IMG/VR virus record: IMGVR_UViG_3300005253_000011
Span: 19,114-83,113 of that record
Origin: a virus
Direction: 5' to 3' (one strand)
Length of the DNA stretch: 64,000 nucleotides
Each line of letters starts with the position of its first letter. Positions within the stretch are counted from its first letter, which is position 1. The position numbers and the translations under genes were made by a program. Of this stretch, positions 16,755 to 50,678 are shown piece by piece. The notes beneath the pieces were generated by a model. That model saw nothing but the letters and a program-made list of their open reading frames with translations, was not told the origin of the DNA and searched no databases.

Positions 16755-16786
16755 ATTGCACAATCCAATTTTTATTTGTAATTTTG
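16755..16786 (+). promoter_or_regulatory. Promoter of the permuted tmRNA gene
   Basis: ATTG at 16755-16758, a 20-base spacer, TAATTTTG at 16779-16786. Transcription is expected near 16792, at the start of the acceptor piece. Confidence 0.7.
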
Positions 16787-16792
16787 TCCCAG

Positions 16793-17205
16793 TCCTTTGA
16801 TGATTGATATGTTGAAAGGCATTTGGACATGGGTTCGATTCCCATACACTCCACTAGAAAAGTCCAACCGGTAGCCAGAAAGAGTATATTCTGCTGGTGT
16901 CTATTCGGCTCTGGCCTTGGGGGATGATTCACTGCCACGGTATCCTGTTGAGGAACAGGTAATCCCACGGATAAGGTGAATATTCCTCCCCCCTTGCAAA
17001 AGGGTAAGTTACAATTTTGTAAGATACGGGGTGTACCGGCTTTTGACAGTGCTAGAGTAGGATATCAGGAGAAGACTAGCTAATTAACAGGCGAAAATGT
17101 TAAATTAATTCCTCATGGCAACTTCAAGGAAGCAGCCTAGCTAGGAGCCCGGGTCCCATGACCTCCAGGATAAGATCGGGAAGGGTGGGTCCCCCGGGTA
17201 AACTT
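16793..17205 (+). ncRNA. ssrA: Circularly permuted (two-piece) tmRNA
   Basis: The tRNA-like domain is in inverted order. The 3' half comes first: T arm ATGGG-TTCGATT-CCCAT at 16829-16845, acceptor strand ACACTCC at 16846-16852 and discriminator A at 16853. The 5' half follows at 17028: acceptor strand GGGGTGT (17028-17034) pairs fully with ACACTCC (one G-U). It continues with ACCGGCTTTTGACAG, very like the 5' end of Bacteroidota tmRNA. Helix 2 is supported by AGTGC (17048) with GCATT (16819), and ATATCA (17062) with TGATAT (16805). The tag frame at 17090-17140 reads GENVKLIPHGNFKEAA then TAG. The 172 bases between the halves fold into a GGGGG/CCCCC hairpin and would be removed. The role is rescue of stalled ribosomes. 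No CCA is encoded, as is common for tRNAs here. Confidence 0.85.
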
Positions 17206-17217
17206 AAAACGTGATAA

Positions 17218-17934
17218 ATGAAGAAACAACTTTTGCAATTACAAGGTCGGTCCAGAACCATTACATCCTATTTGGATAATCTGAACATCAACGCAGACGT
17301 AGTAGAACAGTACAACAAGCTTGGAAATCAAGGTCTTGTCCATTGGAAAGAGTGGAGAGACATTATGCAGGATGAAGAGAAGTACAAAGCTCTGTCTCCC
17401 ATCGAGCAACAAACACTGCATGAGAATTCCAGGTCCTACACTCAAATGCTTACTGAGCTTGATAATGAGGTTAAATATCTTACTAATACCAAGCATTCCC
17501 TGGCCCTGGCCGATTGCCTCAATCACATCCTTTCAGCTAATCAGCTGTTAGACAAACTTGTAGATATTTATGGTGGTCGTGATGGAGCCTTCAGTTTCAC
17601 TAAACTCAAGCACGTCAGACAAAAAGGCTGGGACAAGACTGGATATAAAGACAAAGTATTCAATCTGGCCACAGAGCTGGATCTGTTGACTGAAGATTTC
17701 GGTAATCTTCTGAATACTGAGGAAAAAATGAATTTTGTCCAAACTACAGTAGACGCATTAATGAATTACATTTATGTATCCTTTGTACAATCGCTAGCAT
17801 GGCTTAACAGTGAATATGATCGTATAGAGCAGCAAGGGATGCCGGAAGCAGGAGAATTTAAGCTCCCTGAGATCCAGGTACCTAAAGTACCAGAGGATGG
17901 CGAAAGTGATCAGTCAGAAAAACCTAAGGAGTAA
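17218..17934 (+). CDS. Hypothetical protein with coiled coils
   Basis: 238 aa, soluble, mostly helical (for example HENSRSYTQMLTELDNEVKYL and VFNLATELDLLTEDFGNLL), with a Pro/Glu-rich C-terminal tail from about residue 210. No known domain. It begins 13 bases after the end of the tmRNA structures and may share their transcript. Function not recognised. Confidence 0.7.
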   Translation: MKKQLLQLQGRSRTITSYLDNLNINADVVEQYNKLGNQGLVHWKEWRDIMQDEEKYKALSPIEQQTLHENSRSYTQMLTELDNEVKYLTNTKHSLALADCLNHILSANQLLDKLVDIYGGRDGAFSFTKLKHVRQKGWDKTGYKDKVFNLATELDLLTEDFGNLLNTEEKMNFVQTTVDALMNYIYVSFVQSLAWLNSEYDRIEQQGMPEAGEFKLPEIQVPKVPEDGESDQSEKPKE

Positions 17935-26036: not shown

Positions 26037-26111
26037 TAGCGGGAGATGGATTCGAACCACCAGCCATCAACTTATCAGGCTGGTGCTCTGACTATGCTGA
26101 GCTATACCTAT
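26037..26111 (-). tRNA. Degenerate tRNA-Ile (GAT)
   Basis: D arm GCTC...GAGC, anticodon loop CTGATAA (anticodon GAT) and T arm GGTGG-TTCGAAT-CCATC are clear, and the 3' strand TCCCGCT with discriminator A is tRNA-like. The 5' acceptor strand (ATAGGTA) pairs at only about four of seven positions and the anticodon stem has one mismatch. Its first 20 bases overlap the end of the small gene at 26092. Probably a decaying tRNA, or one needing editing. Confidence 0.5.
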
Positions 26112-26229: not shown

Positions 26230-26231
26230 AG

Positions 26232-26304
26232 AGCTGAAGAGAGGATTCGAACCCCTGGCCAGTTCCTTACAAGGGAACAGCTCTACCAACTGAGCTACTT
26301 CAGC
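26232..26304 (-). tRNA. tRNA-Thr (TGT)
   Basis: Perfect acceptor GCTGAAG/CTTCAGC; D arm GCTC-AGTTGGTA-GAGC; anticodon arm GTTCC-CTTGTAA-GGAAC; T arm with TTCGAAT. The anticodon TGT reads ACA. No CCA encoded. Confidence 0.95.
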
Positions 26305-26395
26305 ATTGCCGGGTTGAAAACTACGCCATTTAAACCTCCCCCGGCGGGACTGGAGTTTTGCTCCACTCATCCCATAAATTTGAGCTGTACAGATC

Positions 26396-26554
26396 TTAAT
26401 ATGGCCTCTTGAAGATCCCATACCCACTTTCGAGTATTAGAACCAGCTCCCAGCCCTCATGACCAAATTCGTTCAATTTCTCCCGAAGCAACCTGTTGTC
26501 GTTTCGATGCATGTACATTGTGTTGTAATTCCATCTTTTCTTGAATAATCTCAT
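26396..26554 (-). CDS. DUF4177-like small protein
   Basis: 52 aa from ATG 26554. WNYNTMYMHRNDNRLLREKLNEFGHEGWELVLIL, read as WNY at the start, LLREKLNEFG, then EGWELV and a KRP end, matches the DUF4177 pattern, a small widespread alpha/beta protein of unknown role. It sits between tRNA-Thr and other small genes. Confidence 0.65.
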   Translation of the reverse strand: MRLFKKRWNYNTMYMHRNDNRLLREKLNEFGHEGWELVLILESGYGIFKRPY

Positions 26555-26588
26555 CGTTTTATATTTTAGTCTGCAATCGTTGCAAATA

Positions 26589-26750
26589 TTAGATCCACAT
26601 ATAATACTTCCGATATCTGGCACATAATGTGACCACTAGCGAAAGCCTTGCTTCCTTCAAAGTCTTCCAGGTCGCCATGCTATCATCTTCATCCATCATT
26701 GGGATCGTCATCGATGGATCGCCGTCTTTTAAACATAGTATTCCGTACAT
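26589..26750 (-). CDS. Small hypothetical protein
   Basis: 53 aa, start coupled to the preceding stop by TAATG. Contains KDGDPSMTIPMMDEDDSMATW and a hydrophobic, basic end (VVTLCARYRKYYMWI). No domain recognised. Confidence 0.5.
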   Translation of the reverse strand: MYGILCLKDGDPSMTIPMMDEDDSMATWKTLKEARLSLVVTLCARYRKYYMWI

Positions 26751-26914
26751 TATTTTAGTTTTGTGAGTGCGATTAATACTGATTCTACTTCTTCCATGCC
26801 AACCGGATACTCCCCCTCATGAGTGATGTTACTGAGTTCGTCAATTAAATGATAATCAAACTCCCAACTATTGTACCAGTCACCTTTGTTAAAGTCGACA
26901 TGCATTGGCCGCAT
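26750..26914 (-). CDS. Small acidic hypothetical protein
   Basis: 54 aa from ATG 26914: MRPMHVDFNKGDWYNSWEF, then HLIDELSNITHEGEYP and EEVESVLIALTKLK. Its stop overlaps the next start. Soluble; no family recognised. Confidence 0.5.
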   Translation of the reverse strand: MRPMHVDFNKGDWYNSWEFDYHLIDELSNITHEGEYPVGMEEVESVLIALTKLK

Positions 26915-26945
26915 GCCTCAAGTCTTTTAGTTTTCCCATAGTCTG

Positions 26946-27221
26946 TTATTCAAAACCGCCGTATGTAACTACTCTGGAGACTTCCTTCTCACACACCGTA
27001 CATATCTGTATATCAGTGTACTTAGCTTTGTGAAGGTAACCCCCAGCGACATATTCATTCTCTTCTCTTACATGCTTGTGAGGACAGATACCCTGTAATT
27101 CCTTTAGAAGCTCTCGTACCGTAGTCTCTGCGGTAATAGTCTCATCTTGTAAAGTTTTAATGTGGTTTCTATAACACACTATCTGTTTAATAAGATTCGC
27201 TCGTCTCTCCTTCTTTTTCAT
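26946..27221 (-). CDS. Coiled-coil plus zinc-binding small protein
   Basis: 91 aa. Residues 1-45 form a basic then heptad-like helix (RRANLIKQIVCYRNHIKTL, VRELLKELQ). Residues 46-85 have ICPHKHVREE and ICTVCEKE, a Cys/His set that could bind zinc. Function unknown. Confidence 0.6.
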   Translation of the reverse strand: MKKKERRANLIKQIVCYRNHIKTLQDETITAETTVRELLKELQGICPHKHVREENEYVAGGYLHKAKYTDIQICTVCEKEVSRVVTYGGFE

Positions 27222-27247
27222 CGTTTTACCTTTAATAATAAGTTATG

Positions 27248-27320
27248 TAGCCCCACGGAGAATCGAACTCCGGTATTCAGCATGAAAAGCTGACGTCCTG
27301 GTCCACTAGACGACAGGGCC
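27248..27320 (-). tRNA. tRNA-Glu (TTC)
   Basis: Acceptor GGCCCTG/TGGGGCT (with G-U pairs), anticodon arm TCAGC-TTTTCAT-GCTGA (anticodon TTC), T arm CGGAG-TTCGATT-CTCCG. Discriminator A, no CCA encoded. Confidence 0.93.
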
Positions 27321-27324
27321 ATTC

Positions 27325-27495
27325 CTATAACCATTTACATTCACTTATCTTGGCTCGGCAAGACTGCCGTTTACCATCAATCTTAACTGCCTTCCCATCT
27401 ACGTGAGAGTAATTGGGATAAAAGGGGATCGCCCAGACCATATACTCCCGGTCCTCATACATGAATCTCTGGTACATTACTGGTTTCCTACCCAT
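27325..27495 (-). CDS. Small hypothetical protein
   Basis: 56 aa; starts at a TAATG overlap with the upstream gene and ends 4 bases before tRNA-Glu. MGRKPVMYQRFMYEDREYMVW then FYPNYSHVDGKAVKIDGKRQ and two cysteines in SCRAKISECKWL. No domain recognised. Confidence 0.5.
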   Translation of the reverse strand: MGRKPVMYQRFMYEDREYMVWAIPFYPNYSHVDGKAVKIDGKRQSCRAKISECKWL

Positions 27496-27659
27496 TATCT
27501 CATTTTGTTATCCGTAAGGAATTCCGTCAACCTCTCTCCCATCTTCTCAACATCATCATGTGTGAATCCTTTCTCCATCATGACATCAGTGAATGATTGC
27601 CAGCGCCCAGCTACGAAATGATCGTAGTCTGAAATGATTTCTAAAACTTGTGCATCCAT
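27495..27659 (-). CDS. Small hypothetical protein
   Basis: 54 aa from ATG 27659; the upstream part of the open frame runs into the tRNA-like element. MDAQVLEIISDYDHFVAGRW, then FTDVMMEKGFTHDDVEKMGERLTEF: soluble and helical. Stop overlaps the next start. Function unknown. Confidence 0.5.
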   Translation of the reverse strand: MDAQVLEIISDYDHFVAGRWQSFTDVMMEKGFTHDDVEKMGERLTEFLTDNKMR

Positions 27660-27675
27660 AATCTTAATTATTAGT

Positions 27676-27715
27676 GCCAAGGTGAGGAGTCGAACCCCCA
27701 TACCCGGTCCCTGGC
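27676..27715 (-). ncRNA. tRNA-like minihelix on the minus strand
   Basis: Outer stem GCCAGG with CTTGGC (six pairs, one G-U), a GGTATGG block, then a T-arm-like hairpin with TTCGACT and 3' CCTCA. There is no anticodon arm and no D stem. Related in layout to the eight plus-strand elements at 30006-33464. May be a tRNA fragment or the minus-strand member of that family. Confidence 0.45.
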
Positions 27716-27737
27716 TACTCCTAGAAGTATCGCAATG

Positions 27738-27812
<75 letters not shown>

Positions 27813-29174: not shown

Positions 29175-30005
29175 CTCCCCTCACGTGCGTGTGTGCGCTC
29201 TTTATCCTATTATTCATACAATATCATATCATTTTGTACTATTGCTCATACATTATCGCATATCGGGATACGCAATAGCACCGTTAACAGCACCGACAAT
29301 GATAACGGTTCGATAGAATCGTTCTAAATAAGCCTGAATAACCTATTTACAGGTCTGTAGCGCGTTTGTGTATCATAACGCTACAGTTGACTAAGCTCTT
29401 AGTTTGTTTTTTAACATTTGCTCTGCAGCCCCCGGCGCACTAAGGACACACGTGGTTGTACGCACTCAATTATAACTATTTCATCATCTAAGAACCATTC
29501 TAAATAAGGTCAGCAACACACTCACTATCAGCGGGATACAACGCCGGCTATCTGCTAACTTACTGGCCTGTTGTATTTTAACCTTCCAGTATTTATTACG
29601 TAATTGCTCCCAGTTCATTGACATATTGAGAGCGCGACCGGCAAGCACCGGACGTAAGCAGGGCAGGCAGCCAAAATTGAAGAGATACACTATAGACCAG
29701 CACACGCCGCTGGCAGTGTTAACCACAGAGATGGTTACGAGATCCCGGGAACACATAGCGCACCGGAACAATAAGACAGAGGTATAAGGCCTGCAAAGTT
29801 AGACGGTTAAACAAGACTATTCAGATGGTGAGGATATATTCTTTTATTACCCCTTACGGGTCTTATACTTCAATGACGAATAGTCTACTAATTATTACAT
29901 ATAATAAAACCTCATAACTCTAGTAACATGGTATTGCGGTAACCAGTATAGAGTGTGCATACTCTATGCGTACGGTTTAAAACGGGGATTCGCATCCCTT
30001 TGACA

Positions 30006-30046
30006 GCCAGTATGGTACTCGCTTAAGTTCGCATCTTAAGCAGGGC
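30006..30046 (+). ncRNA. tRNA-like minihelix element 1
   Basis: GCC ... GGC outer pair, then GTATGGTA, then a 7-bp T-arm-like hairpin GCTTAAG-TTCGCAT-CTTAAGC. Followed by GACGTTTAACC and the gene at 30076. A second small TTCGCAT hairpin (GGGA/TCCC) and a TAGAGT/ACTCTA hairpin lie just upstream (29945-30000). Confidence 0.6.
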
Positions 30047-30075
30047 GCGACGTTTAACCAATTTAATATAACATT

Positions 30076-30291
30076 ATGAAAAAATTTGCTTTTAATGGCC
30101 GTAACTATCAGATAGAGAACGGTCTGGTTCACTCTGTAGATAATTCACAGGATTTTACAACATTAGATCCTGTTTACAGGGGTGACAATGTGATCCTAGA
30201 CGGTCACTGTGATGCACTTGGTTTTAAATTGTATGACAGGCCTTCAGGGATACGTGCGTATGGTAATCAGCTTGGATCACGCTCAAAATAG
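30076..30291 (+). CDS. Small hypothetical protein
   Basis: 71 aa: FAFNGRNYQIENGLVHSV, then YRGDNVILDGHCDALGFKLYD and a basic GNQLGSRSK end. Beta-rich, soluble. First gene of the rightward small-gene block. Its TAG stop provides the first G of the next minihelix. Confidence 0.6.
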   Translation: MKKFAFNGRNYQIENGLVHSVDNSQDFTTLDPVYRGDNVILDGHCDALGFKLYDRPSGIRAYGNQLGSRSK

Positions 30292-30331
30292 CCTGTATGG
30301 TACTCGCCTGAGTTCAAATCTCAGGCAGGGC
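30291..30331 (+). ncRNA. tRNA-like minihelix element 2
   Basis: GCCT with GGGC outer pair, GTATGGTA block, hairpin GCCTGAG-TTCAAAT-CTCAGGC. Starts at the last base of the preceding TAG stop. Followed by AACGTTTAAC and the ATG at 30358. Confidence 0.68.
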
Positions 30332-30357
30332 ACAAACGTTTAACTAAATTAAATATT

Positions 30358-30447
30358 ATGAAAGATTATTATCAATCAGAACTGCTGAGTGTACAGCTGC
30401 AAGTTGAAGAACTTTCTTATTACTTACAGACTATACAAACAGTTTAA
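30358..30447 (+). CDS. Tiny helical peptide
   Basis: 29 aa, one heptad-like helix (LLSVQLQVEELSYYLQTI). The start is in the same position relative to a minihelix as its neighbours, which supports translation. Function unknown. Confidence 0.42.
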   Translation: MKDYYQSELLSVQLQVEELSYYLQTIQTV

Positions 30448-30483
30448 TTATTCCTATTAATAAGTAACTAACAAACTAGTAAC

Positions 30484-30660
30484 ATGGATTATTTAACAGA
30501 AGTACGCAACAATTTACAGGCCGCTAAAGATCGCAAAGCGATTGCAATAGCTGAAGAGAACCGCAAACAACGCGGTGCAAAGTTTGGTATTATATTGCTG
30601 ATAGCTGTAATGTTCACCGTTATCATATTATTTGGCGATAATATAGCCAATTGGTGTTAA
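30484..30660 (+). CDS. Small tail-anchored membrane protein
   Basis: 58 aa: charged N-terminus (EVRNNLQAAKDRKAIAIAEENRKQR) and a C-terminal hydrophobic helix (FGIILLIAVMFTVIILF), a tail-anchored layout. Its TAA stop supplies the AA of the next minihelix stem. Confidence 0.55.
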   Translation: MDYLTEVRNNLQAAKDRKAIAIAEENRKQRGAKFGIILLIAVMFTVIILFGDNIANWC

Positions 30661-30703
30661 CCCGTATGGTATACAGGGACAGGTTCGACTCCTGTCCCGG
30701 GTT
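30659..30703 (+). ncRNA. tRNA-like minihelix element 3
   Basis: Outer stem AACCC/GGGTT, GTATGGTA block, 8-bp hairpin GGGACAGG-TTCGACT-CCTGTCCC. The AA belongs to the preceding TAA stop. Followed by GACGTTTAACC and ATG 30728. Confidence 0.72.
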
Positions 30704-30727
30704 CGACGTTTAACCAAATCAAATATT

Positions 30728-30931
30728 ATGAAAAGAACATCTATTTATACCTGTAAGACTTACAAAGGCATTAATCCTGGCAGCACTATTTATATTGATT
30801 TAGATAGTCAGTATATGTTTACAGTTAGCAGAGATGAAAAACAGCTAACATATTATCCGACATTCGACCGAGCTTTACAGTATGTGACTGAGTATCTGAG
30901 AATGAACGGTGTACAATTAGAAATTATTTAA
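30728..30931 (+). CDS. Small hypothetical protein
   Basis: 67 aa, beta-type (TSIYTCKTYKGINPGSTIYIDL, QYMFTVSRDEKQLTYYP), then a helix (DRALQYVTEYLRM). Follows minihelix 3. No family recognised. Confidence 0.55.
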   Translation: MKRTSIYTCKTYKGINPGSTIYIDLDSQYMFTVSRDEKQLTYYPTFDRALQYVTEYLRMNGVQLEII

Positions 30932-30946
30932 CCAATATTTAAAATT

Positions 30947-31120
30947 ATGAAAACATACAAATTTGAAATTATTGCCACTATCAAAAAGATAGTAGAAGTA
31001 GATAGTGAGGACATGCAAACAGCTGAAGAGCAGGCCAATGAGTTATTCAATCCAAATAATGATGGATCTGAAGAATTTTATGGTCAAGAATCGTTCCTTA
31101 TTAGCGTTTACCACAAATAG
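30947..31120 (+). CDS. Small acidic protein
   Basis: 57 aa: KTYKFEIIATIKKIVEVDSED, then TAEEQANELFNP and SFLISVYHK, a compact beta-alpha-beta pattern. Its TAG stop overlaps the start of minihelix 4. Function unknown. Confidence 0.52.
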   Translation: MKTYKFEIIATIKKIVEVDSEDMQTAEEQANELFNPNNDGSEEFYGQESFLISVYHK

Positions 31121-31159
31121 CCAGTATGGTACTTGCCTGGGATCGTTTCCCAGGCTGGC
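31120..31159 (+). ncRNA. tRNA-like minihelix element 4
   Basis: Outer stem GCCA/TGGC, GTATGGTA block, 7-bp hairpin GCCTGGG-ATCGTTT-CCCAGGC; the loop departs from TTCGAAT. Starts at the last base of a TAG stop. Followed by GACGTTTAACC and ATG 31187. Confidence 0.65.
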
Positions 31160-31186
31160 ACGACGTTTAACCAAACTATATCAATT

Positions 31187-31432
31187 ATGGAAACTCCAAA
31201 TTTACATGCATTAAAATGCCATTATTTAGGCCCGACTGGTTACAAATCAGCACGTATCAGCATTCAATCATTACGTTTCAGGCAGAGAATAGTGATCCCT
31301 CAAATTTCTGATAATAATTGGGCTGATTCAATTAAGTATTTAAAAGAGCGCGGTTTCAATATTATTGGACAAGCTGAATATCCCGGCAAAGGCTGGCTGC
31401 TTCTGTCTGATACGTTTGAACCATTGAAGTAA
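31187..31432 (+). CDS. Small hypothetical protein
   Basis: 81 aa from ATG 31187; the longer frame would start inside minihelix 4. TGYKSARISIQSLRFRQRIVI, then DSIKYLKERGFNIIGQAEYP and WLLLSDTF. A small alpha/beta fold. TAA stop immediately precedes minihelix 5. Confidence 0.58.
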   Translation: METPNLHALKCHYLGPTGYKSARISIQSLRFRQRIVIPQISDNNWADSIKYLKERGFNIIGQAEYPGKGWLLLSDTFEPLK

Positions 31433-31473
31433 GCCTGTATGGTATCTGGGACAGTTCGAATCTGTCCCCAGGC
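31433..31473 (+). ncRNA. tRNA-like minihelix element 5
   Basis: Cleanest copy: outer stem GCCTG/CAGGC, TATGGTA, 7-bp hairpin GGGACAG-TTCGAAT-CTGTCCC with a canonical T loop. Begins at the first base after a TAA stop. Confidence 0.75.
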
Positions 31474-31513
31474 ACAATTATTCCTTATTATTTGTACCTA
31501 ACATTTTAGTAAC

Positions 31514-31735
31514 ATGAAACTATTACAAAAGAGATTGATGGAGGCGTTGGAAATATGCGCTGAGAATCACAGTACAAAATTGACCCTGAATCACCTGATG
31601 GGTAAAGATTCTGTACCGAGCGCACAGCCGCTGGTGATCCATAATTGTGTACCTGCTGTTATTGATAAACTTAAAACAGCTGGATTTATGCTTGGCATGA
31701 GTGAATATGGAATGACAGTTGATCACCTGGGATAG
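31514..31735 (+). CDS. Small hypothetical protein
   Basis: 73 aa: KLLQKRLMEALEICAENHSTKL, then QPLVIHNCVPAVIDKLKTAGFMLGM. Helical, soluble. Lies between minihelices 5 and 6. Function unknown. Confidence 0.55.
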   Translation: MKLLQKRLMEALEICAENHSTKLTLNHLMGKDSVPSAQPLVIHNCVPAVIDKLKTAGFMLGMSEYGMTVDHLG

Positions 31736-31740
31736 TAAAA

Positions 31741-31782
31741 CCCGTATGGTATCCGCAGGGGTTCGATTCCCCTGCCAGATGC
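31741..31782 (+). ncRNA. tRNA-like minihelix element 6 (outer stem lost)
   Basis: CCCGTATGGTA block and 7-bp hairpin GCAGGGG-TTCGATT-CCCCTGC are kept, but the expected GGG partner of CCC is absent (CAGATGC follows). It is directly followed by a different folded RNA at 31783. Confidence 0.6.
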
Positions 31783-31861
31783 AATTTGGCTAATTAGGGT
31801 GATACCTAGCATCCACTCACATTGAGATCGTTCGTTAGGAGCGTCCCTGTGAAGCCGAATT
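31783..31861 (+). ncRNA. Candidate multibranched structured RNA
   Basis: AATTTGGCT pairs with AGCCGAATT (nine pairs, one G-U), enclosing TAGG-GTGATA-CCTA, CTCA-CAT-TGAG and a third hairpin with GTTCGTTAGGAGC. AGGG (31796) could also pair with CCCT (31845). Sits 38 bases before the gene at 31899. Could be a leader regulator or an independent RNA; class not recognised. Confidence 0.45.
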
Positions 31862-31898
31862 TTCCTAAATTAATAGTTTTAACCAAAAAACAGTAAAA

Positions 31899-32111
31899 AT
31901 GGCAAAAAGAAGGATTATTAACAGTAGAAGGGTCGCCCGGGGCGCAAAGTTCGGTGGTGGATCAAGTTCAAAGTATGCTGAAAAGATCGCGCAACAAAAG
32001 CACGGCAGATACAGTGAAAATTCACCGATGAGTGTTCATGACGGTGGAATTGGCCTGAGTGTGAACGAAACGAACAGGCGTAGGTTTGACTCTCATAAAA
32101 AGGAGGACTAA
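31899..32111 (+). CDS. Small basic protein
   Basis: 70 aa, Arg/Lys/Ser-rich (AKRRIINSRRVARGAKFGGGSSSKYAEK, abbreviated) with no cysteines; likely nucleic-acid binding and partly disordered. Ends with an AAAAAGGAGG run that acts as a Shine-Dalgarno for the next gene, unusual in this genome. Confidence 0.52.
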   Translation: MAKRRIINSRRVARGAKFGGGSSSKYAEKIAQQKHGRYSENSPMSVHDGGIGLSVNETNRRRFDSHKKED

Positions 32112-32114
32112 TCA

Positions 32115-32195
32115 ATGACTGTATGTATATTCGCTGGAATTTTTATAGCTGCTTATTTATTGATAAGCGCAGTTTTTAGTATCTTTGAAGGATAG
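32115..32195 (+). CDS. Tiny membrane peptide
   Basis: 26 aa, nearly all hydrophobic (VCIFAGIFIAAYLLISAVF), one transmembrane helix. Preceded by AGGAGG at a good distance from ATG 32115. Its TAG stop gives the first G of minihelix 7. Confidence 0.5.
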   Translation: MTVCIFAGIFIAAYLLISAVFSIFEG

Positions 32196-32236
32196 CCTGT
32201 ATGGTACAGGGGTGTGGTTCGAATCCACACCCAGGC
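32195..32236 (+). ncRNA. tRNA-like minihelix element 7
   Basis: Outer stem GCCTG/CAGGC, TATGGTA, hairpin GGTGTGG-TTCGAAT-CCACACC with a canonical T loop. Starts in the TAG stop of the preceding gene. Confidence 0.75.
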
Positions 32237-32267
32237 ACGAATTTTAATTTAAAATTGGAGGTAAATT

Positions 32268-32507
32268 ATGACACGTAAAATTAAAGAGATTGCAGCAGAA
32301 ATCCGTAAGGACTGGAAGAAAGTCAGTATTCATGCTGAACCCTACCTGGGTGCTATGGAGGTCATTGAATCCGCAGATAATGAGTATTATTGGGATTCTG
32401 CCGCTTCAGTCACTCGTTATTTCTTGAGTAATGCTACCACCTGGAAAGGTGAGGTCGCTCGCCGGATCAAGAAGGAACTGAATGAAATGATAGAGGGGAT
32501 CTATTAA
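32268..32507 (+). CDS. Small hypothetical protein
   Basis: 79 aa, charged and helical (KIKEIAAEIRKDWKKVSIHAEPYLG; EVARRIKKELNEMIEG). Preceded by GGAGG 7 bases before ATG. Its TAATGG stop overlaps the next start. Confidence 0.6.
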   Translation: MTRKIKEIAAEIRKDWKKVSIHAEPYLGAMEVIESADNEYYWDSAASVTRYFLSNATTWKGEVARRIKKELNEMIEGIY

Positions 32508-32791
32508 TGGATTGGGTAGAATTTGTTATTCAAAACTGGGCTATGCTGGATCTTAGATTCAGATGGTCTAAACCCAAGCATCCCAGGTATGACTGGAGAG
32601 GAGAGTATATCCACCATATGAATAGATGGCCGGGTTACGAAAGAAACAGACTCTACATTCCTATTTCGTTCATGTCTGATGCCGGTTACATTGACTTGAT
32701 CAAGAAATCATTTCATGTGACCAGTGATATTGAAGGGTCGAAAGCCAAACTTAAAGAGGTATTTGATTACCTCACTGAACACGCTGGATAA
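32507..32791 (+). CDS. Small hypothetical protein
   Basis: 94 aa, Trp/Arg-rich start (DWVEFVIQNWAMLDLRFRWSK), then YIHHMNRWPGYERNRLYIP and a helical C-terminus. Coupled to the upstream gene by TAATG. No domain recognised. Confidence 0.6.
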   Translation: MDWVEFVIQNWAMLDLRFRWSKPKHPRYDWRGEYIHHMNRWPGYERNRLYIPISFMSDAGYIDLIKKSFHVTSDIEGSKAKLKEVFDYLTEHAG

Positions 32792-32834
32792 TATTTAGGC
32801 GGTTCGATATAGTTTTATTAATCTTTAAAAACAA

Positions 32835-33149
32835 ATGCGTATGAGAAAAGTAATTTTTAGTAAATCATCAGAAACAGTTATCCATGTCGATGATATTGGT
32901 AACTACAGTATCACTGGTTTTGAGAGTAAGGACGGCACCCTAAAGGGTGTACTGGTACTTATTGACAACAGCGTAATCGGAGTAACTTTGGTGAAGGGGG
33001 AGCCAGACACGGATCACACTATGCCAGGGCGTCATCCGTACATTAACGGCGGTGTTCAGATTCCTGCTTTTATAAGGGAACTACAAAATGAATTTGATTT
33101 CTTTGTATTTCAAAGCATGGCTGAATTCTTTGACTGGATCGCTGGATAA
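32835..33149 (+). CDS. Small hypothetical protein
   Basis: 104 aa; ATG 32841 is an equally possible start. Beta-rich (KVIFSKSSETVIHVDD; GVLVLIDNSVIGVTLVKG), then a helix (IRELQNEFDFFVFQSM). Stop overlaps the next start. Function unknown. Confidence 0.62.
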   Translation: MRMRKVIFSKSSETVIHVDDIGNYSITGFESKDGTLKGVLVLIDNSVIGVTLVKGEPDTDHTMPGRHPYINGGVQIPAFIRELQNEFDFFVFQSMAEFFDWIAG

Positions 33150-33421
33150 TGGGACGCGAGAAGAAATCTAATGAAGAGCTGGGTTACACTATCCCAGTTA
33201 TGCGGAGACTTGAGAAGGGTAGATATGCTTCTGCCTTTGCTAAGTCTCTTGAGCCAGATAAGAATGGACAGATTAAAGTGAGAACTTCCGATCTACGAAG
33301 TACTAGCTGGTTAGGTACATCGGTCATTCACGTGCCCGAAGGATTCGAAATTAAGGAACCGCCAGCACCAAAAGGCAAGGATGAGGCTGGCCGGTATTTT
33401 AGTGGATCAGATCCCATTTAA
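33149..33421 (+). CDS. Small basic hypothetical protein
   Basis: 90 aa, Lys/Arg-rich N-terminus (GREKKSNEELGYTIPVMRRLEK) and a Pro/Gly-rich C-terminus. No known motif. Its TAA stop supplies the first bases of minihelix 8. Confidence 0.58.
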   Translation: MGREKKSNEELGYTIPVMRRLEKGRYASAFAKSLEPDKNGQIKVRTSDLRSTSWLGTSVIHVPEGFEIKEPPAPKGKDEAGRYFSGSDPI

Positions 33422-33464
33422 CCCTGTATGGTACTATGGTCAGGTCCGACTCCTGACCAGGGTT
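33420..33464 (+). ncRNA. tRNA-like minihelix element 8
   Basis: Full 7-bp outer stem AACCCTG/CAGGGTT, TATGGTA, hairpin GTCAGG-TCCGACT-CCTGAC. Starts in a TAA stop. A second hairpin (AATTGAG/CTCAATT, 33466-33487) follows immediately. Confidence 0.72.
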
Positions 33465-33500
33465 CAATTGAGTAATGTTGCTCAATTTAAACTGTTTTAT

Positions 33501-33731
33501 ATGGTATATATGACAGCGGAAGAAGCTCTCGCCCTAATGGAGAGCGCAGTAGACGTATATCAGTGGAACCAGTTCCGGAGACTGATTACGTACAATCTCA
33601 ATCCCGAATCAATAGAGTCTTTCCTGGGACTTATTGATCACACGGGCATGATCAGGAAAGTAGCCCGAGCCAACAAGTGGCCGAAGGTGTATACGTATTC
33701 TTATGGATGGATTTTAAATAAAAATGAGTAG
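33501..33731 (+). CDS. Small hypothetical protein
   Basis: 76 aa from ATG 33501; the longer frame starts upstream of minihelix 8. TAEEALALMESAVDVYQWNQF, RRLITYNLNPESIESFLGL, then a basic end. Helical. Overlaps the next gene by 8 bases. Confidence 0.58.
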   Translation: MVYMTAEEALALMESAVDVYQWNQFRRLITYNLNPESIESFLGLIDHTGMIRKVARANKWPKVYTYSYGWILNKNE

Positions 33732-47075: not shown

Positions 47076-50000
47076 CTAAGCTGCTAACTTACCCCAACTC
47101 TCTTTGCTTCTTTCGAAGTCAACTTTCATAGGTAGAGAAAGTGTTCTATCAAAATATGTCTCAATTGGTAAATTCTCCATAACTGTTTTGATCAATAAGA
47201 TCGTTTCTTCCAGAATATCGTCTGGTACGTAGTAGAGAATACTGTCATGAATTGTATTTATAAAGATCACCCGCTCGTCCAACAATAGCTCCAACAATGG
47301 TTGTAGTAGGGTAAATGCAAATATAGTCATCTCGCCAGCGGTACCTTGGATCGGTGAATTAATAGCGTTCCGTTCCGCATGGCCAACTTTAAATCTGTTG
47401 AAATTTTTTAGGTCGGGTAATCTTACTTTTCTCCCGAACATGGTCCTGACGTGTCCAAATTTATACGCCTTGGCTATATATGTCTTGTGATACTCCTTTA
47501 GACCGGGGTATAACTTAAAGAAATCATCTCGCCGCTGCTCAGCTTTACGCTTGCCCATGATAATCCCATATTGTACCCTGGCATAATCCCGGTACCCACC
47601 GGCAGACATGCCATAACAATTATGGGATACTAAATTATTGGCTATGAAACTATTATCCTGATCAACGGTTAAATCATATACTTTATCGGCATGTTTAAAA
47701 GTATTTATTGATGTAATTAATTCTTCTGCGAAGTATTGTCTACTGGACCTGTATTCTACTCTATTAGCTTTTACGGTCGGTATTAAATCCAAAAATAAAC
47801 TACGGCCAACACTTCCAATAATATTAAGACTATACATGTAATCATCATATCCGTATATTTTAGATGGTATGCCGAAACTATACAAACACTCCTGTATATC
47901 ACTAAGCAAATCCTTACTAATAGAAGTATACTGAATAGTCAGCTTAGCTTTTCCCCGCATCGAAATTGATCCATCACCGTCCCACAACCCCGCTAATATA
48001 TACCTTTTATCTTCTCTACTTAAAGCGGGTATTAAATGTGAAAAAGTTTTATCCTCAGCTTTTAGTCTATAATCAATATACTTACCTAAAACATTCCGCA
48101 TAATATCTGACGAGATAGCAAAATATTCTACATTATGTGCATATTTTGCTATCCTATAAGAATATTTTGGGCATAGTATTTTACGCATACGTTTATACAC
48201 ATCCGGATTACTTTTTTCTATTTGAGATATTTTTCCGTTATTTCCTTGAGATCCGCCTTCTGATAAATACCACCCAATAAACAAAGACAAGTCTTCTCCA
48301 AAATTAGAATCTCCGTGATAACCCTCATAATGATTATTTACCAAATACATACCCAATTCCATATCCTCTGCTCTTACCCACCCGTATTTAACCTTTAACC
48401 CGTTAGCCGAAGGAAAACAAACATACATCATATGATCTCCTGTACATTTAATATTCTTACCGGATCTGGTATTTATATTATACAGTGTATCCGCCGTTAA
48501 ACATTGTGTATCAGTTACCTCTTGCCAATTCCCTTTATGGGTTAGTACTTTATCTCCCACAACAACCTCTTTTATTAATATAGTACCTCTATCTGTTATT
48601 ACAGCCGTTTCTTCGGATAAACAAAGACCGAAGTTCTCAGACTTGGCTTCAAACCTACTCTCTTTCTTCTCCTTATCATCTAATTCTTTCCATTTCGACA
48701 GGGATAAACCCTTGACATTAGCTGCTGTAAGTTCATGCAGATCCTGATCATCAAGATATGTCTGCATCATTTGCTTATCCTGGGAGTAATGAGCTATCAA
48801 TCTCAGCTCTGCCTGGGAGTAGTCAGCCTGGAGAAGGGTATGCCCGAACGGCACTGAAAATGATCCCTTCACTCTCCCCACTGCTTTCTCAACTATCTCA
48901 TATTTTGTCCGGGTGATTTGGTTCTGCAGATTTGGCTTACTGGAACTCAACCGGCCCGTCTTTGCAATATGCTGATTAAAACTAGTGTGAATCCTACCAT
49001 CCTTACCTACTTTATCACGAATGGATATCAGATAAGTGCTCAGGATCTTAGTCAGCTGACGATAAGCCAGCAGGTTGTCCAGGAATCCGGATCTATCAGC
49101 AATGTAATTAAGTACGTCTTTACCGGTACCACTCTTAAGCTCACCGGTTATAGGATCTTCTGGATAATCAAAATTAAAGCCTTCATCACTGTATATCAGC
49201 TCATTCATCTGTGCCGGACTACCAAAATTAAGAAGATCGCTGCTACTAACACTACCTGTTTTCCAAGCGTCTATCTGCAACTTCATGGTCTGTATCCGCT
49301 TAACGCTGGCTGCCTCTGCAATGCCTCCATATACTTTGGCTTTTTCCTTCGCTATCCGCAGCATCAGTATACTAACCCTACCAGCATCTTCTTCATGTAT
49401 AATTTCCTCCTGTATGTTAATTACTCTCTTATCCCTGCGGTCTGCAGGCGTCTCAGCAAACTCCCTCTCACCCTCTCTCAGGATCTTATCCTCAAGCTTG
49501 GCGATCATACTATTTTTAAACACTATATCTTTATGCGCTTGATACTTCTTCACGGTTTTGTTTTTCCGCAATTTATACTCCTGCGCAATGATATCAGCCT
49601 CTGTCTGTAGGATAGCCTGATCTATGTAGTTTTTATCGATCAGCATTCCATTCTGCTCTGCTTGGAATAAGGCCTTGGTAGCCGGTGCGGTAAGATTCCT
49701 AAACAGGTTATAGATCCGTGGATGTTCCTCAAGCATAATGTTTGTGAAGAGTAAATATAGGCGAAGGGTGAGATCCGAGTCAAGTGCAGCATAGGGGGCC
49801 AGCCTTTCCACGGGAATACTCTCCCAGCTGGTGCCCTGTAGCTTGTTCTCATACCCTGCAAATGCTGGAAAATACACACTAACCTGATATTTCAATCCGT
49901 TAGGTGTATTCTCATCCAGTAGCTGGGACATAAGCATAGTACAATGGAATGCACCTTCGAACCGCTTAATGCCCATTACGACAGCACAATGCATGTCAAA

Positions 50001-50678
50001 CTTTACATTGTGCCCAATCTTAACGATGTCCGGATTACCGAACACTTTTTCGTCCAGGGCCATAGCTACATGTCTGAGATCATCTGCAGACATATTTTCC
50101 AAATCTAAGAAAATGGCTGATCCAATTTGATAGGTTAACGCTAGGCCCCGGAGCCGGAAATTCGGGTCGAATGTGGCCATATCCGTAAGGGTCGTGGTCT
50201 CAAAGTCAAATGAGACCCATGACGCATTGCTTAAGTATGGTAGGTACGGAAGCAATTCTTTAAACGTATGGATTATTTCGAACTCGTTTTCCGGTTCATT
50301 AAATTTTTCTCCGCTTGCAATCATGTAGGCCTTTTGAATGGCTTCAGCGTATGGTGCAAGCTCTGATGGATGACTTGTGATATAGCCCGGGGACAGGAGA
50401 AGAACAGTCATTACGCCATTCCACTCCTTTATCTGTCCAGACATTCTTTTTATTCCCTTAATTCGAAATGTGTGATTCAGGGCTTCCTCACCACATACGA
50501 ATACAATGTCTGGACTGTGACTGCCGATGCTATCAACAGCCGCCTCAGTCCCGGACCAATACTCGAAAGACAGTTCATCCTCCGGTATTTCTATCACATT
50601 AGTCATCAATGACTTCAGTGTGTTTAGATGTAGCTCTTGCGAGCTCCCTTTGTCTATGAATGTAAGTACTTTAGGCAT
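47076..50678 (-). CDS. polA: Family A DNA polymerase with exonuclease and an intein
   Basis: 1200 aa precursor, 865 after splicing. Exonuclease: DFETTTL (159-165), NVKFD (224-228), YAALDSD (296-302). Polymerase: TGRLSSSKPNLQNQ (574-587), motif A LLQADYSQAELRLIAH (615-630), motif B split by the intein (AKSENFG / YGMSAGGY), motif C TIHDSI. The exonuclease residues look active, so it is a proofreading replicase. The intein (residues 686-1020) begins with Cys and ends HN followed by Cys. N-terminal 150 residues are not recognised. Confidence 0.95.
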   Translation of the reverse strand: MPKVLTFIDKGSSQELHLNTLKSLMTNVIEIPEDELSFEYWSGTEAAVDSIGSHSPDIVFVCGEEALNHTFRIKGIKRMSGQIKEWNGVMTVLLLSPGYITSHPSELAPYAEAIQKAYMIASGEKFNEPENEFEIIHTFKELLPYLPYLSNASWVSFDFETTTLTDMATFDPNFRLRGLALTYQIGSAIFLDLENMSADDLRHVAMALDEKVFGNPDIVKIGHNVKFDMHCAVVMGIKRFEGAFHCTMLMSQLLDENTPNGLKYQVSVYFPAFAGYENKLQGTSWESIPVERLAPYAALDSDLTLRLYLLFTNIMLEEHPRIYNLFRNLTAPATKALFQAEQNGMLIDKNYIDQAILQTEADIIAQEYKLRKNKTVKKYQAHKDIVFKNSMIAKLEDKILREGEREFAETPADRRDKRVINIQEEIIHEEDAGRVSILMLRIAKEKAKVYGGIAEAASVKRIQTMKLQIDAWKTGSVSSSDLLNFGSPAQMNELIYSDEGFNFDYPEDPITGELKSGTGKDVLNYIADRSGFLDNLLAYRQLTKILSTYLISIRDKVGKDGRIHTSFNQHIAKTGRLSSSKPNLQNQITRTKYEIVEKAVGRVKGSFSVPFGHTLLQADYSQAELRLIAHYSQDKQMMQTYLDDQDLHELTAANVKGLSLSKWKELDDKEKKESRFEAKSENFGLCLSEETAVITDRGTILIKEVVVGDKVLTHKGNWQEVTDTQCLTADTLYNINTRSGKNIKCTGDHMMYVCFPSANGLKVKYGWVRAEDMELGMYLVNNHYEGYHGDSNFGEDLSLFIGWYLSEGGSQGNNGKISQIEKSNPDVYKRMRKILCPKYSYRIAKYAHNVEYFAISSDIMRNVLGKYIDYRLKAEDKTFSHLIPALSREDKRYILAGLWDGDGSISMRGKAKLTIQYTSISKDLLSDIQECLYSFGIPSKIYGYDDYMYSLNIIGSVGRSLFLDLIPTVKANRVEYRSSRQYFAEELITSINTFKHADKVYDLTVDQDNSFIANNLVSHNCYGMSAGGYRDYARVQYGIIMGKRKAEQRRDDFFKLYPGLKEYHKTYIAKAYKFGHVRTMFGRKVRLPDLKNFNRFKVGHAERNAINSPIQGTAGEMTIFAFTLLQPLLELLLDERVIFINTIHDSILYYVPDDILEETILLIKTVMENLPIETYFDRTLSLPMKVDFERSKESWGKLAA
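47619..48623 (-). mobile_element. Intein with LAGLIDADG homing endonuclease in polymerase motif B
   Basis: 335 aa, from Cys 686 to Asn 1020 of the polymerase. N-terminal block CLSEETAVITDRG; block B GDHMMYV; block F/G VYDLTVDQDNSFI and VSHN then C. LAGLIDADG motifs: LFIGWYLSEGG (799-809) and YILAGLWDGDGS (893-904), with an acidic residue in each, so the endonuclease may be active. Splicing should rejoin motif B, the nucleotide-binding helix. Confidence 0.93.

Follow-up and report, generated by a model that had tools for sequence, protein, structure and literature searches.

The phage DNA analysed here, a stretch of 64,000 nucleotides (the window), contains eight minihelices interspersed with small genes. 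All eight are real, and they belong to a new, phage-specific RNA family; what a sequence-only reading of the window had noticed is confirmed, and was understated. That these are tRNA-mimic punctuation elements working at the RNA level is strongly supported by covariation, the elbow, a 12-13 bp limit on the helix, the N73-C74 end that real phage tRNAs share, the CCA encoded in one array, the 5' hairpins close downstream, the occupancy of gene gaps in cultured phages and a strict orientation. Our explanation, to which we give a probability of roughly two in three, is that they are RNase Z/RNase P processing signals in a putative polycistronic phage transcript. Taken as a whole, the earlier interpretation is partly supported.

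Eight minihelices and their relatives

A covariance model (R3) whose training set held no sequence from the window, L093 or L020, so that the phage itself and its near relatives were excluded, scored all eight copies (E 2e-18 to 3.3e-10; Table 1). Its scan of the whole 64 kb gave nothing else below 1e-4, and thus returned exactly the eight elements, on the + strand, that had been listed from the sequence. A structural descriptor recovered five of them in 29901-33600 and had no match in 300 dinucleotide shuffles. The limits of each copy, nt 1 to C74, were set by a 12-bp rule. For five tested ORFs of the run in which the minihelices lie, a PHROGs search gave no match. Among the seven copies with a preceding ORF, nt 1 is the third base of the stop codon in five, a refinement of the remark that most begin in or beside a stop codon. 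The sequence GTTTAAC is present only 3' of some window copies, within the leader. A divergent candidate for a ninth copy scored E=5.7e-6 with model R2 (full record) and E=4e-4 with R3. The three complete tRNAs lie in gaps between genes of the leftward operon and terminate in N73-C74, CCA not being encoded; full tRNAs in this phage thus sit in the same kind of gap as the elements.

Table 1. Minihelices and neighbouring features, in window coordinates
Feature	Position	Strand	Evidence	Context and structure
Minihelix 1	30006..30048	+	R3 E=3.3e-10; sequence	Upstream of first gene; acceptor 3 bp only, with bulged A; T-stem 7 bp
Minihelix 2	30291..30333	+	R3 E=3.2e-15; ORF table	nt 1 = G of TAG, ORF 30076-30291
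Minihelix 3	30660..30704	+	R3 E=1.6e-16	nt 1 = last A of TAA, ORF 30484-30660; A(-1)-T73 pair lengthens helix to 13 bp
Minihelix 4	31120..31161	+	R3 E=3.9e-11	nt 1 = G of TAG, ORF 30947-31120; T-loop ATCGTTT; stack of 11 bp
Minihelix 5	31433..31475	+	R3 E=1.4e-15	Directly 3' of TAA, ORF ending 31432
Minihelix 6	31740..31782	+	R3 E=2e-18	4 nt past stop of ORF 31514-31735
Minihelix 7	32195..32238	+	R3 E=1.8e-16	nt 1 = G of TAG, small ORF 32115-32195
Hairpin, 7-bp stem	32240..32256	+		Begins 1 nt past C74 of minihelix 7
Minihelix 8	33421..33465	+	R3 E=2.3e-16	nt 1 = last A of TAA, ORF 33149-33421
9-bp hairpin	33466..33487	+		Immediately after C74 of minihelix 8
Run of small co-directional ORFs	30076..33421	+	ORF table	Minihelices in between
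Candidate divergent ninth copy	27671..27717	-		Between tRNA-Met and next gene
Complete tRNA genes	26231..27807	-		Thr 26231-26304, Glu 27247-27320, Met 27737-27807

The same element is present on hundreds of phage contigs. In the cultured mycobacteriophages Cuke, Indlulamithi, Fowlmouth and MrMiyagi it lies in 28 of the 41 gene gaps of at least 60 nt, against 0/41 in antisense and 16 of 710 CDS windows in the same four phages. Each cultured mycobacteriophage genome holds 11-13 model matches, and in these arrays the stop is usually 8-10 nt upstream of the element. The cultured phages bearing it include some that grow on laboratory Mycobacterium smegmatis. Searching for relatives with the DNA of the region, and with the terminase protein in INPHARED, returned nothing. 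We rejected an origin in host chromosomes: the pattern matches 28 times in 257 Gb, many of these being real tRNAs or chance, and R2 matches 3 of 248 genomes of one phylum. One tail of the pattern matches is a separate thing, tRNA-like RNAs of 120 nt with two T-arms, which were left out of the models.

A tRNA elbow with no anticodon arm

No family of Rfam 15 reached its gathering score with these elements; below threshold there were fragments of the tRNA clan and some weak matches unrelated to it. They are not canonical tRNAs (RF00005): the anticodon arm is missing from every copy, as had been claimed, and ARAGORN and Rfam are silent at all eight. The U-run of an intrinsic terminator does not directly follow the hairpin, positions 75-78 being A-rich or mixed, and the integron attC core boxes RYYYAAC / GTTRRRY are absent from the two ends, which vary freely in the alignment; on these ends and positions 75-78, simple-repeat, terminator and attC readings were rejected.

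What is found is an acceptor stem that stacks on a T-arm whose loop has 7 nt. Both stems covary strongly, with 553 double-change cells versus 162 in shuffles and 91% of cells paired. An outer stem of at least 4 bp is present in 59 of 95 distinct relatives retrieved by pattern only, when 11.4 were expected and the maximum in 1,000 permutations was 24; further permutation tests on pattern-only matches gave 55/85 and 78/100. Pairing is therefore kept by compensatory change, as the sequence-only reading had it, and covariation in homologous phages, whose absence it had named as fatal to the idea, is present. The acceptor-like outer stem that it described is imperfect in copies 1 (3 bp) and 6 (three of five pairs).

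Two further statements of it have to be corrected. The block GTATGGTA, described as invariant, is not constant across phages, since relatives have GCATGGTG or GAATGGTT; and the D stem, described as absent, is reduced to one or two bp, for GTATGGTA is a mini D-arm with an AUGGU loop. In the N-ATGGT-N' loop both G's are conserved and the closing pair covaries (T-A in 59, C-G in 30, A-T in 23, three unpaired). The pair is present in 45 of 47 members of a set obtained with a model that does not require it, and patterns with a paired D-block match at least about 120 stretches each, as against 28 for the mismatched pattern. These G's match the docking G18-G19 of tRNA, hence the tRNA elbow appears to be kept and the anticodon arm alone to be missing. 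The T-loop (consensus TTCGANT) conserves the C needed for the elbow. From published elbow structures, among them that of mascRNA, which is made by two conserved D-loop guanosines, we infer that the D-loop GG docks on the T-loop (PMC11693755).

From T-loop to end the distance is about 12 bp, and it is completed by a discriminator and a tRNA-type 3' end. Stacked helices total 11, 12, 13 and 14 bp in 39, 58, 60 and 1 elements; of this total only the 13-bp upper limit is sharp, and the idea that acceptor and T-stem lengths compensate to a constant sum was discarded (correlation -0.05). C74 is present in 125 of 151 elements and C75 is rare, while array L276 encodes CCA after the element. In Bacteroidetes-type phages, this one included, real tRNAs also end in N73-C74 without CCA.

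Co-directional genes border the elements, which are on the transcribed strand and have ORFs both upstream and downstream in 88 of 142 cases (antisense 11%, random positions 18%). In 38 of 117 cases the stop codon reaches the acceptor: nt 1 overlaps it by one or two bases in 29, and in nine it lies deeper inside the element; the commonest single offset is +1 (26). The median distance to the downstream ORF start is 43 nt, and a Shine-Dalgarno-like GAGGATGG and a separate hairpin come after the element. Just past C74, 45% of elements have a hairpin of at least 5 bp (controls 16-19%) and 27% have one of at least 6 bp (controls 7%); over half show no clear hairpin downstream. The hairpin that follows minihelix 7 is possibly the 5'-terminal hairpin of the downstream mRNA.

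A putative processing signal and its alternatives

Both RNase P and RNase Z find their cut by recognising the elbow and measuring from it (PMC11693755), and bacterial RNase P tolerates extensive truncation of tRNA (PMC4919922). We propose that an anticodon-less tRNA mimic is embedded in a polycistronic phage transcript, where host tRNA-processing enzymes would read its elbow and measure as far as the helix end. A cut at N73/C74, made by RNase Z or a 3' endonuclease equivalent to it, would provide the downstream gene with an mRNA of its own, in many cases carrying a 5' hairpin that begins 0-2 nt later, and would leave a tRNA-like 3' end on the upstream gene. A second cut, by RNase P before nt 1, may release a minihelix of roughly 43 nt. 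One promoter would then yield single-gene mRNAs, much as tRNA punctuation does in mitochondria. Both cuts are putative; the 3' cut is the more probable, given how often stop codons overlap the acceptor strand. What makes the RNase P cut doubtful is that it would in many cases remove the final base of the stop codon, and sometimes all of it, leaving UA- or nonstop ends. Bacterial RNase P prefers U at position -1; this preferred U is not seen (position -1 is A in 45 of 76) and C75 is rare, both of which speak against the proposal. So do the missing trade-off between acceptor and T-stem lengths and the many elements with no clear hairpin downstream, and the length of the helix could also be set by some other binder of tRNA ends. 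On a broader version of the proposal our confidence is evenly divided: a dedicated, independently evolved punctuation system, a phage-specific family found with distant hosts (Bacteroidetes-type, mycobacterial and others), in which gene boundaries are where host RNase P and RNase Z cut, some of the cuts falling within the stop codon as in animal mitochondria.

A serious though rather unlikely alternative shares the 3' cut and differs in the 5' one. The element would be cut or trimmed at its 3' end only and the minihelix would stay on the upstream mRNA, its tRNA-like end resisting 3'-5' exonucleases and able to receive CCA, with no RNase P cut and stops intact. The stop overlaps just described, and particularly the frequent +1 offset, are in its favour, as are C74, the encoded CCA and the downstream 5' hairpins. 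However, RNase P recognises precisely these two features, the 5' strand and the elbow, and mycobacteriophage stops, mostly 8-10 nt upstream, leave room for a 5' cut.

It is improbable that the excised minihelices are decoys, abundant small RNAs occupying tRNA-binding host proteins such as RNase P, the CCA-adding enzyme, EF-Tu or tRNA-targeting defence nucleases. The many copies per genome (11-13 matches in the cultured mycobacteriophages) and the retention of the tRNA elbow and 3' end would suit such a role, but one copy per gap, the orientation and the linkage to stop codons suit a cis role, and decoys would not require spreading between genes. Lacking the anticodon arm, they could not be decoys for anticodon nucleases. 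We give equally little credence to a translational element, an uncut mimic at the stop that acts on termination, on the recycling of ribosomes or on re-initiation at the following gene. Although the exact stop-codon overlap and the median of 43 nt to the next start fit this idea, most mycobacteriophage copies lie 8-10 nt behind the stop, the hairpin and the Shine-Dalgarno-like motif downstream are separate, the terminating ribosome would unfold the 5' strand, and C74 and CCA are left unexplained.

A role of the DNA itself, as a site for recombination or gene cassettes (resembling integron attC, or an attachment site) that is palindromic by chance, is very improbable. Integrons contain hairpin-rich sites, and the elements sit beside small genes that have no known relatives, but the ends have no shared core sequence, a DNA site would have no use for the conserved TTCGANT T-loop, D-loop GG and N73-C74, the strand relation to genes is strict and the 3' end is that of real tRNAs. 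Functionless remnants of tRNA genes (decaying tRNAs or attachment-site fragments) might be expected of phages that do carry tRNAs, in a world where host genomes commonly hold tRNA fragments left by integration (PMC9897764), but compensatory change throughout, arrays of one copy per gap and a uniform architecture in unrelated phages contradict them, and given the covariation found this reading is close to refuted.

Known systems and what the family would mean

The processing signal that we favour has partial counterparts elsewhere. In animal mitochondria, tRNA structures between protein genes are likewise the cutting sites of a polycistronic transcript, tightly abutting stop codons, and the predicted 5' cut often leaves UA- (Ojala, Montoya and Attardi 1981, cited in PMC8003010); those are full decoding tRNAs, whereas the phage mimics are anticodon-less, ~43 nt long and putatively cut. 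Plant mitochondrial t-elements (Forner et al. 2007, cited in PMC8003010), a substrate of PRORP (PMC4919922), are also non-decoding tRNA-like structures that signal mRNA end formation; they are described from organelles, with a protein-only RNase P as the cutting enzyme, whereas the phage elements form a uniform family in long arrays, with an RNA-based RNase P expected in the hosts. The mammalian mascRNA and menRNA (from MALAT1 and MEN-beta) share the acceptor and T-arm, the reduced D-arm and the two elbow guanosines, and their processing by RNase P and RNase Z and their CCA addition are predicted for the phage elements too. On the other hand, mascRNA retains an equivalent of the anticodon stem and derives from a single long noncoding RNA, at its 3' end (PMC11693755), whereas a third arm is missing from the phage elements, which are arrayed between genes. 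In bacterial operon mRNAs and tmRNA, tRNA-like or transient structures are also processed by RNase P (Li and Altman 2003; Komine 1994, cited in PMC4919922); these are single, unrelated host sites with no repeated dedicated element, unlike the phage minihelices. Phage tRNA arrays fill the same kind of gap in some phages and have the same N73-C74 end, but consist of decoding tRNAs with anticodon arms, whereas the minihelices are uncalled by ARAGORN and Rfam.

In the searchable open-licence PMC papers we found no description of tRNA punctuation in phages or of intergenic phage minihelices, and nothing there contradicts the earlier statement that no such phage array has been described; as far as that literature goes, the chopping of phage operon messages by tRNA mimics was not known so far. 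The family bears on annotation as well, since at least one gene, Cuke gene 43, apparently has its start called ahead of an element. If our explanation is true, a widespread unannotated RNA family accounts for the regular gaps of ~90 nt between small genes of cultured phages, and offers a natural minimal tRNA-elbow substrate, from which compact natural processing tags for multi-gene constructs could result. The M. smegmatis phages would be a ready genetic system for the effect of RNA punctuation on phage gene expression, and on the broader version tRNA punctuation would have evolved independently in viruses of bacteria.

Anatomy of the minihelix

The eight copies in the window follow, on inspection, a common plan: an outer stem of 4-6 bp, GTATGGTA, a hairpin of 7-8 bp capped by a TTCGAAT-like loop, and finally the second strand of the outer stem. 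To avoid circularity, we trained the covariance model R3 solely on 54 elements from other phages (alignment A6), leaving out sequences of the window and of its relatives L093 and L020. In the 64-kb window it picked out exactly the eight elements that the sequence-only reading had claimed (E 2e-18 to 3.3e-10), each remaining match being a lone T-arm, a real tRNA, or weak (E > 1e-4). A structural descriptor with a 7-bp T-stem recovered five elements and none in 300 dinucleotide shuffles. At the eight sites there is no ARAGORN or Rfam call, although both detect genuine tRNAs in other parts of it.

Pairing had been thought to be kept by compensatory change, and the covariance search of other phages did find covariation. 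Across 119 distinct copies, standard pairs fill 91% of pair cells, double changes number 553 versus 162 in shuffles, and the covariation score is 0.84, versus 0.19 in shuffles and at most 0.23 when slid one column. The supposedly invariant block is indeed GTATGGTA in the window copies, but GCATGGTG or GAATGGTT replaces it in others, which a model trained on GTATGGTA also recovers; with that model, the closing pair of the D block is kept in 45/47 copies. Across the whole collection, GCATGGTG and GAATGGTT each occur in at least about 120 stretches, and mismatched GCATGGTA in 28 in total. Outer stems accompany the two other paired forms in 55/85 (16 expected) and 78/100 (15 expected), among the matches listed. 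The constant-looking GTATGGTA is thus itself a stem.

Paired D-block forms and outer stems therefore give the plan of acceptor stem, mini D-arm, short linker, T-arm and acceptor strand. The anticodon arm is absent, as initially claimed, but the D stem is kept as a mini D-arm of 1-2 bp with the loop AUGGU or ACGGU. The GG of this loop lies at the position of tRNA G18 G19, and the T-loop retains C56. By analogy with tRNA and mascRNA structures, from which we infer docking (PMC11693755), the element would be a tRNA that keeps its elbow but lacks the anticodon arm. The stacked helix totals 11, 12 or 13 bp in 157/169 copies and 14 bp in one, the 13th pair being N(-1)-N73. At the helix end follow N73, the discriminator position, and C74 (C in 125/151). 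N73-C74 without CCA also ends real tRNAs of the window phage and of other Bacteroidetes-type phages, and the minihelices of one array (L276) have an encoded CCA. This common end is the best internal sign of reading by tRNA 3'-processing enzymes.

Distribution among phages

A scan of IMG/VR for GTATGGTA-N5-12-GGTTCGANTCC, which leaves the outer stem unspecified, matched at least 119 stretches; in 59 of 95 distinct flanked hits, among the matches listed, the outer stem is 4 bp or longer, against a mean of 11.4 and a maximum of 24 when flanks are permuted. L093 holds at least eight full copies within 3.1 kb, and L276 (record G042, 69 kb) eleven within 4 kb, one per gap. Searched against 257 Gb of bacterial and archaeal genomes, this pattern gave 28 hits, several being ordinary tRNAs or chance, and a covariance-model search of one phylum found the element in 3/248 genomes. 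The minihelix is essentially a phage element. This distribution is a sample from scans, with pattern counts as minimum numbers, and counts are biased to GTATGGTA, GCATGGTG and GAATGGTT types because training sequences were partly pattern-chosen.

Cultured carriers were reached via isolates in IMG/VR. The mycobacteriophages Phantastic and Rockstar have one copy; Cuke, Indlulamithi, Fowlmouth and MrMiyagi, which grow on M. smegmatis mc2 155, also carry minihelices, and whole-record searches of cultured mycobacteriophages gave 11-13 hits each. In these four phages the element occupies 28 of the 41 annotated gaps that measure 60 nt or more (antisense 0/41), while 16/710 coding windows score by chance. 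Gaps with elements have no annotated tRNA or RNA feature in the annotated stretches, and no ARAGORN call. The typical unit is a stop codon, 5-18 nt, a minihelix ending ACG/ACA, a small hairpin, a GAGGATGG-like ribosome site and a start codon. In some of the other gaps sit variants in which a hairpin is inserted at the anticodon-arm place, a possible bridge between minihelix and tRNA. Cuke gene 43 may have a mis-called start codon.

Phage tRNA arrays also carry tRNA-like RNAs of ~120 nt, with a 7-bp acceptor and two T-arms, in the order D-arm, hairpin, T-arm 1, GNRA-type hairpin, GTATGGTACTATT, T-arm 2. They mostly miss a proper anticodon loop, have no ARAGORN call, and have the mini D block in common with minihelices. 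Elsewhere in the window, the A-type DNA polymerase ORF appears, from its translation, to hold an intein (CLSEETAVITDRGT ... NLVSHN), and several HNH- and GIY-YIG-like ORFs are scattered among structural genes.

Features in the window and in other phage stretches (L454, Cuke)
Feature	Stretch	Positions (strand)	Remark
Eight minihelices	window	30003-33470
Permuted tmRNA-like gene	window	16763-17231 (+)	ARAGORN, tag ENVKLIPHGNFKEAA; no Rfam support at gathering level
T-arm in tmRNA-like gene	window	16829-16845	top lone T-arm match of models
Fourth tRNA	window	26037-26111 (-)	Rfam 43 bits; missed by ARAGORN
DNA polymerase A-type ORF	window	47076-50678 (-)	1200 aa
~120-nt RNA	L010	1900-2040	also L012, L016, L018, L040, L041, L052, L070, L074, L119
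Minihelix with long hairpin at anticodon-arm place	L454	7486-7682	remaining gap
Same	L456	5837-5956	remaining gap
Same	L456	6912-7111
Same	L455	7258-7406
GGCCACTCTCGAAAGAGAGTGTGCC ... GGTCAATTCAGACC, conserved structure in gap without minihelix	L454	3294-3372	three related mycobacteriophages
Same	L456	2762-2837
Same	L457	3117-3196
Cuke gene 43	L454	5388-5669	annotated start precedes element; gap there in related phage
Predicted element at gene 43	L454	5392-5440

Gene context and predicted cutting

With ORFs called mechanically in contigs, 117 of 142 copies with enough flank have a same-strand ORF upstream and 88/142 have ORFs on both sides (controls: antisense strand 11%, random positions 18%). 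Most elements were said to begin in or beside a stop codon; in the window, nt 1 (the first acceptor base) is the third stop-codon base in 5/7 copies, and this is the commonest single offset overall (19/76, and 26/117 in a larger set). An ORF stop falls within the 0-3 nt window for 37% of elements versus 1.8% of random positions. Downstream, 27% of copies, against 7% of shuffled or downstream control windows, have a hairpin of 6 bp or more that begins no more than 8 nt past C74; most of these hairpins start 0-2 nt beyond it. This is the placement expected at the 5' end of a new mRNA.

The elbow serves RNase P and RNase Z as recognition feature, and both find their cut site by measuring along the stacked helix (PMC11693755); bacterial RNase P tolerates extensive tRNA truncation, and its L15 loop pairs with the 3' RCC (PMC4919922). 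Since the element has the elbow, stacked helix and tRNA-like end that these enzymes read, except C75, we infer that it would be cut by RNase P/RNase Z. A 3' cut is better supported, given N73-C74, the CCA and the downstream hairpins, than a 5' cut before nt 1. The latter is less sure because stop codons would be shortened or removed (a UA- or similar end in 29/117, the stop removed in 9) and U(-1) is not preferred ahead of elements. Messages could be translated before the 5' cut, their ends could be completed as in animal mitochondria, or the 3' cut alone could occur.

The open-licence literature searched holds no description of the element, and no described family tested takes it in (no Rfam family match, no tRNA call). 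Its proposed mode of action would be like that of mitochondrial tRNA punctuation, mascRNA and plant t-elements (PMC8003010), and we class the minihelix with tRNA-like processing signals, outside any described family tested.
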